Below, one piece after another: positions 7,746 through 11,421 of a DNA stretch of 64,000 nucleotides (positions are counted from its first letter, which is position 1; each line of letters starts with the position of its first letter). The notes under the pieces are model-generated. The model ran no database searches. It worked only from the letters and a program-made list of their open reading frames with translations, and was not told the DNA's origin. The translations under genes were made by a program, and so were the position numbers. Source of the DNA: Prosthecobacter sp. SYSU 5D2 (GTDB taxonomy: Bacteria; Verrucomicrobiota; Verrucomicrobiia; Verrucomicrobiales; Verrucomicrobiaceae); the NCBI RefSeq assembly GCF_039655865.1, contig NZ_JBBYXL010000008.1, forward strand, positions 124,001 through 188,000, written 5' to 3'.

Positions 7746-7964
7746 GGGCGAGCAAGTGATCAACCACAGGTGGCCGGTGATTGCCAGGGCTCTCTGGTTT
7801 CATCACCTTAAAGTTTACTGTTTTTCGGCAAAAGAGTTACATCATTTTATTTTTGTGCCCCTGCTTCAGGACAAATGACACGACATGGAATTTTCCGGCA
7901 CAAAGGCTGTCCAAAAGCTCGTTGATAAGTCCTCTTATTGTTTTGTTCCCACCTTATGCACCCG

Positions 7965-9044
7965 ATGAAATCTTTTGCCGTTGGTCTCTCCCTCATGTTT
8001 GCCCTGGCTGCTCCGGCGGCGGAGTGGACCATCTCCACCTTTGCCGGTACCGGTGAAAAAGGCTTCAGCGGCGACGGAGGTCCTGCCACGCAGGCCAAGA
8101 TGGACAATCCGTTCGGCGTCACCCGCGGGCCGGACGGTGCCCTCTGGTATTGCGAATACACCGGCCAGAAGGTGCGCAAAGTCACGCCAGATGGCATCAT
8201 CCACACCATCGCCGGCACCGGGGAACTGGGCTACACGGGCGACGGCGGCCCGGCCCTGAAGGCCACCTTTAATCTGCCTCACGAAATCCGCTTCGATGCC
8301 GCCGGTGACCTGTACATCGTGGACATGCGCAACCATGCCGTCCGCAAGGTGGACATGAAAACCGGCATCATCAGCACCTTTGCCGGCACCGGCAAGCCCG
8401 GCTACAGCGGTGATGGCGGACCTGCCGCCCAGGCGCAGTTGAAGGACCCCCACAGCATCCAGTTTGGCCCGGATGGTGACCTCTACATCTGTGACATCGG
8501 CAACAACGTCATCCGCAAGGTGGACATGAAGACCGGCACCATCAGCACCTTTGCCGGCACCGGCAAGCCCGGAGCCACGCCCGATGGAGCACCCATCGCA
8601 GGCACCCCTTTGAAGGGCCCCCGCTCACTGGATTTTGACAAGGATGGCAACCTCTGGCTCTGCACCCGTGAAGGGAATCAGGTCTTCAAGTTTGACCTCA
8701 AGGCAGGCAAGATTCACCACATCGCCGGCACGGGCAAAAAAGGTTTCACCGGCCACGGCGGACCTGCCAAGGAAGCCACCCTCAGCGGCCCCAAAGGCAT
8801 CGCGCTGGATGCGGAAGGCAATGCCTGGCTGGCCGATACGGAAAGCCACAGCGTGCGCATGGTGAACGCGAAAACCGGCACCCTGGACCTCATCGCCGGC
8901 AACGGCAAAAAGGGCGACGGTGCCGATGGCGACCCGCTGAAATGTGAGATGGCCCGCCTGCACGGCATCTATGTGGACGCCGACGGTGCCGTCTATATCG
9001 GTGACAGCGAGGCCCATAAAGTCCGCGTCCTGCGCAAGAAATAA
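7965..9044 (+). CDS. Exported NHL-repeat beta-propeller protein (first of tandem pair)
   Basis: A 359-residue protein with a clear signal peptide (MKSFAVGLSLMFALAAPAAE). The rest is about six NHL-type repeats of roughly 55 residues. Each carries a version of STFAGTGKPGYSGDGGPA, then a loop such as LYICDIGNNVIRKVD. The repeats are unusually regular, suggesting recent internal duplication. NHL propellers are binding scaffolds or, in PVC bacteria, parts of exported oxidoreductase-like proteins; no catalytic motif is seen here. ATG at 7965 (MKSF) is chosen; another at 7956 would add three residues. A related propeller gene follows after 36 bp, probably in the same transcript. Confidence 0.85.
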   Translation: MKSFAVGLSLMFALAAPAAEWTISTFAGTGEKGFSGDGGPATQAKMDNPFGVTRGPDGALWYCEYTGQKVRKVTPDGIIHTIAGTGELGYTGDGGPALKATFNLPHEIRFDAAGDLYIVDMRNHAVRKVDMKTGIISTFAGTGKPGYSGDGGPAAQAQLKDPHSIQFGPDGDLYICDIGNNVIRKVDMKTGTISTFAGTGKPGATPDGAPIAGTPLKGPRSLDFDKDGNLWLCTREGNQVFKFDLKAGKIHHIAGTGKKGFTGHGGPAKEATLSGPKGIALDAEGNAWLADTESHSVRMVNAKTGTLDLIAGNGKKGDGADGDPLKCEMARLHGIYVDADGAVYIGDSEAHKVRVLRKK

Positions 9045-9080
9045 ACACGGCTGCCGCCCTCCCCTTACCCACTCCATTTC

Positions 9081-10130
9081 ATGACCTCACTCCGCCTCCT
9101 TCTCCTCACCGCCCTGCTCCCTGGTTATGCCCTGGCGGACCGCATTCATCTGGTGGCTGGCGGCAAGCAGGAATCCGTCGGCATTGATGCCAAGGAAGCC
9201 GTGCTCAAGGAGCCCTTCGGCACCGAGTTTGACCCCGGCGGCCACATGTGGATCATCGAGATGGTCTCCGGCAACCGTCTGCTCCAGGTGGATGGCGGCG
9301 GCATCCTCACGCACGTGGCCGGCCAGTTGACGCCCGGCTACAGCGGCGATGGCGGCCCTGCCATCAAGGCCCAGTTCAACGGCCCGCATAACCTGGCCAT
9401 CCTGCCGGATGGAAAAGTCCTCATTGGCGATACCTGGAACGGCTGCGTGCGGGAAGTGGATGTGAAAGCCGGCCTGGTGAAGACCCTTGAAGGCTGGAAG
9501 GCGCCCAAGGGCAAGGAGCGCGGCAACGGCCCCTACTGCATCACCCTGGACTTCAAAGGTGAAAACCTCTACATCGCCAACCTGCGCCAGGTCCATCGTC
9601 TGGACCTCAAAACCGGCATGTCCAAAGTCATCGCAGGCAATGGTGAAAAAGGCGTACCGGAAGATGGTGCCGTCGCCACAGAAGCCCCGCTGGTGGACCC
9701 CCGCGCCGTCGCTGTGGACCGCCAGGGCAACGTGTACATCCTGGAGCGCAATGGCAATGCCCTGCGCGTCGTGGATCCAGCCGGCCGCATCCGCACCGTC
9801 GTCAATGCCAGCGGCAAAAAAGGCGGTACCGGTGACGGCGGCCCAGCGATCGAAGCCACCATGACCGGCCCCAAGCACCTGTGTGTGGACCAGGACGACA
9901 GCGTCATCATTGCCGATGCCGAAAGCCACCTCATCCGCCGTTACGTGCCCGCCACCGGCAAGATGGAGCGCATCGCCGGCACCGGCACCAAAGGCAGCTC
10001 CGGCGTCGGCGGTGACCCAAAACAGTGCCAGCTCGCCCGCCCTCACGGCGTGACCATCCATCCTCAATCGGGAGAACTGTACATCACCGACAGCTACAAC
10101 AACCGCGTGCTGAAAATCACGAAGGAGTAA
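9081..10130 (+). CDS. Exported NHL-repeat beta-propeller protein (second of tandem pair)
   Basis: A 349-residue paralogue of the upstream gene, with a signal peptide (MTSLRLLLLTALLPGYALA) and five to six NHL-type repeats (YSGDGGPAIKAQFNGPHNLA, TGDGGPAIEATMTGPKHL). The repeats are more diverged than in the first protein, and the first blade lacks the full GDGG motif. The C-terminus ends in a typical propeller-closing strand (LYITDSYNNRVLKI). It lies 36 bp behind the first gene on the same strand, so the two proteins may be made together and act on the same extracytoplasmic target. Function beyond binding is not visible. Downstream DNA holds a large inverted repeat. Confidence 0.84.
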   Translation: MTSLRLLLLTALLPGYALADRIHLVAGGKQESVGIDAKEAVLKEPFGTEFDPGGHMWIIEMVSGNRLLQVDGGGILTHVAGQLTPGYSGDGGPAIKAQFNGPHNLAILPDGKVLIGDTWNGCVREVDVKAGLVKTLEGWKAPKGKERGNGPYCITLDFKGENLYIANLRQVHRLDLKTGMSKVIAGNGEKGVPEDGAVATEAPLVDPRAVAVDRQGNVYILERNGNALRVVDPAGRIRTVVNASGKKGGTGDGGPAIEATMTGPKHLCVDQDDSVIIADAESHLIRRYVPATGKMERIAGTGTKGSSGVGGDPKQCQLARPHGVTIHPQSGELYITDSYNNRVLKITKE

Positions 10131-10159
10131 GCCCTGGAATTGCCGCTCTGCTCCATCCG

Positions 10160-10376
10160 TAGGCCGGATGTGTTCGGCGCGCTGCATCCCTCCGCCCCAC
10201 AATTCCCATCGCCGAATTATCCGGCTATTCTTTGAAGGTGCGGAGTCAAACAGCCATTCGTTTTTTGGCAAAACCGTCGCAAGGAGAAAAGGGCACCGCC
10301 GAAGAAAGCCGGATAGTTCTGCGAACGGCCTGTTTCAGGACCGCGACCTCACCCTGCGCAGAACACATCCAGCCTA
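10160..10376. repeat. 217-bp imperfect inverted-repeat element
   Basis: The 332-bp gap between the second NHL gene and the GDP-fucose synthase gene holds no convincing ORF. It does hold a long imperfect palindrome. The outer arms at 10160-10180 and 10356-10376 are inverted copies over about 21 bp with two mismatches. An inner pair, around 10213-10238 and 10293-10319, shares ATCCGGCT-centred sequence in inverted orientation, and a TTTTGGCAAAA-like self-complementary core sits near 10268. No transposase is present. It could be a MITE-like element or a structured transcript. The remaining 10377-10462 contains only a short CCTGT/ACAGG hairpin. Confidence 0.55.
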
Positions 10377-10462
10377 CTTGCCTCCCTCCTAGTCACCCAT
10401 TTTGTTAGACGGGATTTTTCTAAATCTTGTTAATCCTGTAAAAAACAGGCGCCCGCTTCCCG

Positions 10463-11398
10463 TCATTCCCCCCGCGTCTCACCTTTCTGAAAGTCCGCAT
10501 ACGCCGCCCGCAGGCCTGCTGCCAGCTCCACGCGCGGCTGCCAGCCCAGGCTCATGATGAGGCTGGAATCCAGCAGCTTGCGGGGCGTGCCGTCCGGCTT
10601 GTCCGGATCAAACCGCAGCTCGCCGGCATAGCCCGTTGCCTCCTTCACCGTCTGCGCCAGCGCGCCGATGCTGCATTCCTGGCCGCTGCCGATGTTCACC
10701 CAGTCGGGCGGGTTTTCCAGTTCTAACAGATGCAGGCAGGCGGCGGCGAGGTCATCCACATGCAGGAACTCACGCAAGGGAGTGCCCGTGCCCCAGACGG
10801 TGACCGCAGGGTCCTGCCGGACCTTGGCCTCATGAAAGCGGCGGATCAGGCCGGGAATGACATGGGAGTTCTCCGGGTGGTAGTTATCACCAGGGCCGTA
10901 AAGGTTGGTGGGCATGGCGGAATGAAACAGCACCCCATGCTGGCTGCGATAGTGCTGGCACAGCTTCAGTCCGGCGATCTTGGCCAGCGCATAGGCTTCA
11001 TTGGTGCTTTCCAGCGGGCCGGTCAGCAGACAGTCTTCCGGCATCGGTTGCGGGGCCAGGCGCGGATAGATGCAGGAGCTGCCCAGAAACAGCAGGCGTT
11101 TCACCCCGGCCTTGTAGGAGGCATGGATGACATTGGCGGCCATCATCAGATTGTCATAGATGAAGTCCGCCGGGTAGGTTTTGTTGGCGTGAATGCCACC
11201 CACCCTGGCTGCGGCCAGGATGACGGTATCAGGCCTGTTTTGGCCTAACCAACTTTCCACATCCGCCTGCCGGCACAGGTCCAGCTCCGCATGGGTGGCG
11301 GTGAGGATGTCCGCCCCGCCCATCTCCTGCAATGCGCGCACCAGGGCGCTGCCCACCATGCCGCGATGCCCGGCGATGTAGATGCGTGAAGTCGGCAT
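10463..11398 (-). CDS. fcl: GDP-L-fucose synthase
   Basis: A 311-residue short-chain dehydrogenase/epimerase. The NADP-binding loop is [10 protein letters not shown] (about 9-18), the catalytic Ser region is GSSCIYP, and YALAKIAG carries the Tyr-x-x-x-Lys pair. Fucose-synthase hallmarks follow ([11 protein letters not shown] and EFLHVDDLA). It performs the 3,5-epimerisation and 4-reduction of GDP-4-keto-6-deoxymannose to GDP-L-fucose in the cytoplasm. ATG at 11398 is chosen over an upstream TTG. The gene ends a four-gene minus-strand run of nucleotide-sugar enzymes and lies 23 bp after gmd, whose product it uses. Length matches E. coli Fcl (321) closely. Confidence 0.96.
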
Positions 11399-11421
11399 AG
11401 GGTGTGTCAAATGAGGGGTGG

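Follow-up and report, generated by a model that had tools for sequence, protein, structure and literature searches.

What is the nature of the long imperfect palindrome that lies between an NHL-repeat gene and an epimerase gene in the window, i.e. the whole 64-kb stretch of DNA that was analysed? A reading made from the sequence alone had offered a MITE-like insertion derived from an unknown transposon, or a long structured RNA. We conclude that the palindrome is very probably a REPIN (a REP doublet with its GTAG ends outermost, the unit of a BIME) that is tied to one RAYT lineage, and that would have spread as single-stranded DNA driven by the RAYT.

The palindrome in the window

The palindrome is real. 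Its outer arms (10159-10180 and 10356-10377) are 91% complementary with two mismatches, and its inner arms (10209-10226 and 10307-10324) are 18 nt in length and 89% complementary. The element has the form GTAG...CTAC with limits at 10159 and 10377, one base more on each side than the 10160-10376 of the sequence-only reading, which is correct in essence. That reading had the two mismatches and the inner inverted pair right, but the length of the outer arms is 22 nt rather than 21 bp. Folded as RNA, the palindrome has an energy of -91.8 kcal/mol (z = -5.47), and none of 200 dinucleotide shuffles was equally stable; a transcribed copy would fold strongly. When the 64 kb were searched with a 17-nt outer-arm pattern, allowing up to three mismatches, the two arms were the sole matches (0.16 expected).

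The halves also fold singly, pairing outer-left with inner-left and inner-right with outer-right. The palindrome consists of two facing GTAG-tagged REP hairpins of 68 and 71 nt that are separated by a spacer (Table 1). Following its GTAG tag the left hairpin has a 15-bp stem with a 2x1 bulge, and a loop of 30 nt. An antisense frame of 394 aa covers the NHL gene and extends over the palindrome's left part. We judge this to be spurious, leaving the palindrome without a credible gene, in agreement with the earlier statement that it holds no open reading frame. Two NHL/teneurin-type beta-propeller genes lie side by side at 7938-10130, and the product of the epimerase gene reads as a putative GDP-fucose synthase-like enzyme.

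Table 1. Positions of the palindrome halves and their neighbours in the window, and of the RAYT pieces on contigs C18 and C3 of the same genome
Feature	Position	Strand	Evidence or remark
NHL-repeat protein gene; end 28 bp short of element	9081..10130	+	Pfam NHL, TEN_NHL
Left REP hairpin; arm of G-type with tag TTCGGCG	10159..10226	+	model R1, 67.5 bits
Spacer, 80 nt; ends partly complementary (TCTTTGAAGGTGC / GGGCACCGCCGAAGA)	10227..10306	.	sequence
Right REP hairpin, inverted, loop of 33 nt; arm of T-type with tag TTCTGCG	10307..10377	-	model R1, 81.7 bits
NAD-dependent epimerase gene, convergent; end 85 bp past element	10463..11410	-	Pfam Epimerase
RAYT of this genome, first part	C18:52384-52632		one base after REPIN C18:52199-52382
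RAYT of this genome, last part	C3:587650-588126		near contig C3 end; REPIN 587459-587643 just after

Dispersed copies and their sites

The genome (5.87 Mb in 26 contigs) contains eight further full-length relatives of the palindrome, found by DNA search at 70-81% identity. The sequence-only reading was to be refuted if the arms occurred nowhere else and were not conserved; they recur within the genome. In the alignment of these copies each has two hairpins, one of the form GTAGGCCGGATGTGTTC[G/T]GCG...CGC[C/A]GAACTATCCGGCT and a second that is its partner in inverted orientation. From 24 halves a covariance model of the half-element, R1, was built. It finds 26 halves in this genome, comprising 12 convergent pairs and two singles; three of the 29 rows in the list are weak opposite-strand matches and are not counted. 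Under stricter filters there are R1 matches in 26 of 56 genomes, i.e. this one and 25 of the 34 further genomes of the genus, and none in the 21 genomes from other genera of the order.

Of 174 halves read, 130 were kept after dropping overlapping and opposite-strand matches; this count omits the duplicate loci L072, L097 and L085, as well as L149, which has the same R1 scores as L107. GTAG is present at the start of 120 of the 130, and 124 have a length of 66-72 nt (a 15-bp stem and a loop of about 30 nt), compared with 20-50 nt in the part of PMC8266576 compared. The 56 neighbour pairs counted comprise 43 in +-, nine in --, two in -+ and two in ++ orientation, and the inverted doublets have GTAG outermost. 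An extra outer arm beyond GTAG in some copies of this genome is weak, and upstream of the long/long arms of relatives there is little information except for C at -1 (0.53 bits).

The copies in this genome are intergenic at the 13 places examined of 14 (by an ORF heuristic; L006 is outside the count), and seven of the 13 lie between convergent genes, again by heuristic choice of ORFs. At the two places that adjoin RAYT pieces, which we read as co-directional, the RAYT frame was overlooked by the heuristic. The convergent placement, together with the very stable fold, is what favours a structured RNA or a bidirectional terminator, domesticated at gene ends, as the primary nature of the element. 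We nevertheless consider this very unlikely. No terminator-like site was found in a scan of 9900-10700, and an Rfam scan of the window gave no match at gathering score; moreover the orthologous loci of relatives are unoccupied, and the linkage to a transposase described below argues against it.

At E ≤ 0.01 there is no R1 match at any of 18 loci of NHL orthologues, nor at any of ten loci of the gene beside another copy in this genome, L009, although contig ends may have truncated some of the flanks. From its protein we take the latter gene to be argS. A weak match is seen in L147 (17 bits, E = 0.027). The sites of these two copies are therefore not shared with the relatives examined. Three flanks were tried in relatives and no exact empty site was obtained; since the relatives keep one neighbour gene and not both, the junction and any duplication cannot be read there. 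As in the sequence-only reading, no target duplication was seen by eye, here in nine full copies printed with their flanks. With a Y1/HUH RAYT, target duplications would not be expected.

The palindrome family is a small DNA repeat with two arms, and is probably mobile. To this extent the earlier 'MITE-like' proposal holds: the repeat is small, non-autonomous and of mobile type, with dispersed copies, positions that are unconserved in the loci examined, and a cognate transposase. The class to which it was assigned is wrong, the ends being GTAG-tagged hairpins and the linked enzyme a Y1/HUH RAYT. A classical MITE has short terminal inverted repeats and is moved in cut-and-paste manner by a DDE transposase, with target duplication. 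The 22-nt inverted ends and the dispersal of copies would suit this, while the lack of a visible duplication in these nine copies, the internal compensation within the terminal hairpins and the proximity of a Y1/HUH RAYT clade make it highly improbable. An IS1380-type gene, which is a DDE element, lies next to a RAYT fragment; DDE transposons with REPIN ends were looked for solely via the half-element search of this genome.

The linked RAYT lineage

There are ten PF01797 matches in this genome, one of which (on C3) is directly beside a REPIN. RAYT matches with at least 50% identity to the C3 protein are found in 12 genomes, including this one. Long halves are present at 11 of these 12 cognate loci, the best E-value per locus being 4.2e-9 or better, compared with none of 22 loci from other Y1/RAYT clades (18 of relatives and four of this genome). 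The twelfth cognate locus, L108, has 32-nt short REPs only (best E = 0.0064). At L119, where a RAYT of another clade is 41% identical, there is a short 32-nt REP near 1936-1967 (E = 0.0041 and 0.0027) that scores as well as that of L108, so that a looser threshold gives 12/12 versus 1/22. The genome of L119 (G031) is itself rich in R1 matches, having 46, and this RAYT may partner the long/short REPIN form of that species.

Among 80 named RAYT-relative loci, found with the clade alignment, the sole R1 match is in the closest, L149 (63%). This is not independent, as its R1 scores equal those of L107, and it appears to come from the same genome. The presence of the repeat correlates only loosely with that of the gene: 15 of the 26 R1-positive genomes have no RAYT at 50% identity or above (many are draft assemblies), and one genome with a RAYT (G022) is R1-negative.

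The MPNH.H motif and the tyrosine of RYIA.NP (residue 209 in the first sequence) are invariant in all 12 RAYTs; the latter is the putative catalytic tyrosine. Four RAYT proteins were compared with family models. All match PF01797, three of them above the cut-off, and all have NCBIfam REP_Tyr_transpos as top family. Their scores with NCBIfam NF047646 are 77.3, 80.9, 73.4 and 67.5 bits, of which one is above the 80-bit cut-off. Of the relatives with a solved structure, 4er8 ('TnpArep') is the best (E = 9.8e-7). The stop codon TAG lies within GTAG in nine of the 11 complete RAYT genes of the clade. An R1 half starts at this GTAG in L101, L103, L104, L107 and L110, and by eye a short REP does so in L106 and L108; in L100 and L105 there is no clear REP at the stop GTAG.

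Could the palindrome belong to an IS200/IS605 insertion sequence rather than to a RAYT? The enzymes are of the same superfamily, and the genome has an IS200-type tnpA (L030; NCBIfam transpos_IS200 69.5 bits, cut-off 55). However, the L030 locus is without a half-element while the long halves adjoin the RAYT clade, and we regard such an association as most improbable. We note further proteins of this kind in the genome. Three similar PF01797-matching proteins of 200-380 aa containing EAQLVGVNAKTAPYPAARSW (L035, L036 and L039, two of them in loci that a contig end truncates) form another repeated Y1-like family. L033 (C11:70674) and L031 (C18:32090) encode RAYT-like proteins with no long half nearby, the latter inside an open frame of 757 aa that we take to be glycosyltransferase-like.

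In the mechanism that we favour for the REPIN, each REP would fold as single-stranded DNA, and the RAYT (HUH/Y1) would bind GTAG, the lower stem and the bulge. The bound RAYT would cut near each folded REP, and would paste the doublet at another site. The RAYT gene of this genome appears to be broken. Its pieces are on two separate contigs (Table 1), and we infer that they were once one gene. The frame on C3 runs into an IS1380-type transposase gene (contig ends L040 and L325), and the RAYT appears to have been split by this other insertion element. Because the gene appears interrupted and the copies have diverged, the REPINs of this genome probably amount to a remnant that is no longer mobile.

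The fold that is kept and the unequal arms

The two halves of a REPIN can form separate hairpins (the 'clover') or pair together as one long hairpin. Covariation supports the clover; energy folding favours the long hairpin instead. In an alignment fitted to the model, 97.8% of the within-half cells hold standard pairs, and 107 cells are compensated on both sides, compared with 25 in shuffles; both-sided changes are found at eight of 16 stem pairs, and slid controls give 28-43%. The alignment of copies from this genome, which was not fitted to the model, gives 95.8% standard pairs, 20 both-sided cells compared with eight, and both-sided changes at three of 15 pairs, with slid controls at 15-47%. 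In 43 REPINs, 1259 of 1290 pairs are standard for separate hairpins, compared with 1164 of 1290 for the long hairpin. By contrast, the energies of the folded DNA favour the long hairpin for 55 of the 62 REPINs and the clover, by the same rule, for none. A figure legend in PMC3116915 suggests that RAYTs recognise the clover and not the stable hairpin, and this is favoured by the covariation in these REPINs.

The arms of a REPIN are mostly unequal. We examined 62 unique long/long REPINs of 15 genomes, out of 119 loci in 25 genomes picked by R1 score; the detector was stricter, recovering ten of the 12 REPINs of this genome and missing L008 and L037. In 54 of the 62 there is a compensated, both-sided difference between the arms at stem positions 16-18. 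An initial count of 43/43 had suggested that all REPINs are unequal-armed, and this was dropped on the larger number of loci. Most of the lower stem is common to both arms, and the upper stem varies. At positions 10 and 11, in the lower stem, 43 and 35% of comparisons between genomes show a difference, and 3 and 0% of those between arms; for position 6 the values are 41 and 11% respectively, while position 17 differs in 55% between genomes and in 69% between the arms of one REPIN. These counts are not independent, since the copies in one genome share descent.

Other species have a long/short form, with a short REP of 30 nt as second arm. A short REP is found beside 47 of 56 long halves in ten genomes, mostly 43-44 nt downstream (G034 has 0/3), compared with two of 440 control windows, a control that is truncated at the borders of its windows and did not pick up the L119 REP. 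REPINs with one REP of about 70 nt and one of 30 nt are seen at L245-L282, L285, L286, L291 and L295-L297. A conserved CGCTCCGGCC foot precedes GTAG in the long/short form only. We note that this foot contains CT, and that CT is given as the cleavage dinucleotide of the E. coli TnpA-REP in the part of PMC8266576 compared.

We tentatively suggest, as something possible rather than probable, that the two arms must stay distinguishable. The RAYT would recognise what the two arms have in common, namely GTAG, lower stem and bulge, and left would be told from right by the upper stem (positions 16-18) or, in the long/short form, by the length of the loop. The base pairs of the tag would be swapped across lineages with the arms kept different and the hairpins intact, so that the clover would be the working substrate and the long hairpin would not. 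A general preference for heterodimers among REPs, with 'no obvious explanation', is described in the part of PMC3733652 compared, where protection from enzymes such as SbcCD is the proposed reason. A difference of one pair that leaves the long hairpin as the energy minimum would fit such protection poorly.

In the parts of the sources compared, GI-GIII of Pseudomonas fluorescens SBW25 (PMC3116915) and the y/z BIMEs of E. coli (PMC8266576) are likewise GTAG-tagged imperfect hairpins, dispersed as inverted pairs with an adjacent cognate RAYT, and the stems are irregular here as in the E. coli REPs (PMC8266576). In the SBW25 GI doublet the two ends carry the same 16-mer (PMC3116915), whereas here the arms are mostly unlike. 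The GTAG-tagged REP families 1-24 of PMC3733652, which include Opitutus terrae of the Verrucomicrobia, have the same tag and form dimers with GTAG outside; in the part compared their stems are 5-13 bp and their loops mostly short, with an inner region of up to 27 bp in Bradyrhizobium. The parts of PMC3733652 compared do not contain this family, which is spread through the genus and has both long/long and long/short pairs, and there was no paper on this REPIN family among the literature matches listed (open-licence PMC papers). REPINs, RAYTs and unequal REP pairs are already known; what is new is the unusually long family.

An unannotated palindrome becomes in this way a repeat family open to annotation in the genomes of the genus. 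Many species of the genus share one RAYT lineage and differ in their arm tags, and so provide natural variants with which the choice between long and separate hairpins, and the reason for the unequal arms, become testable.
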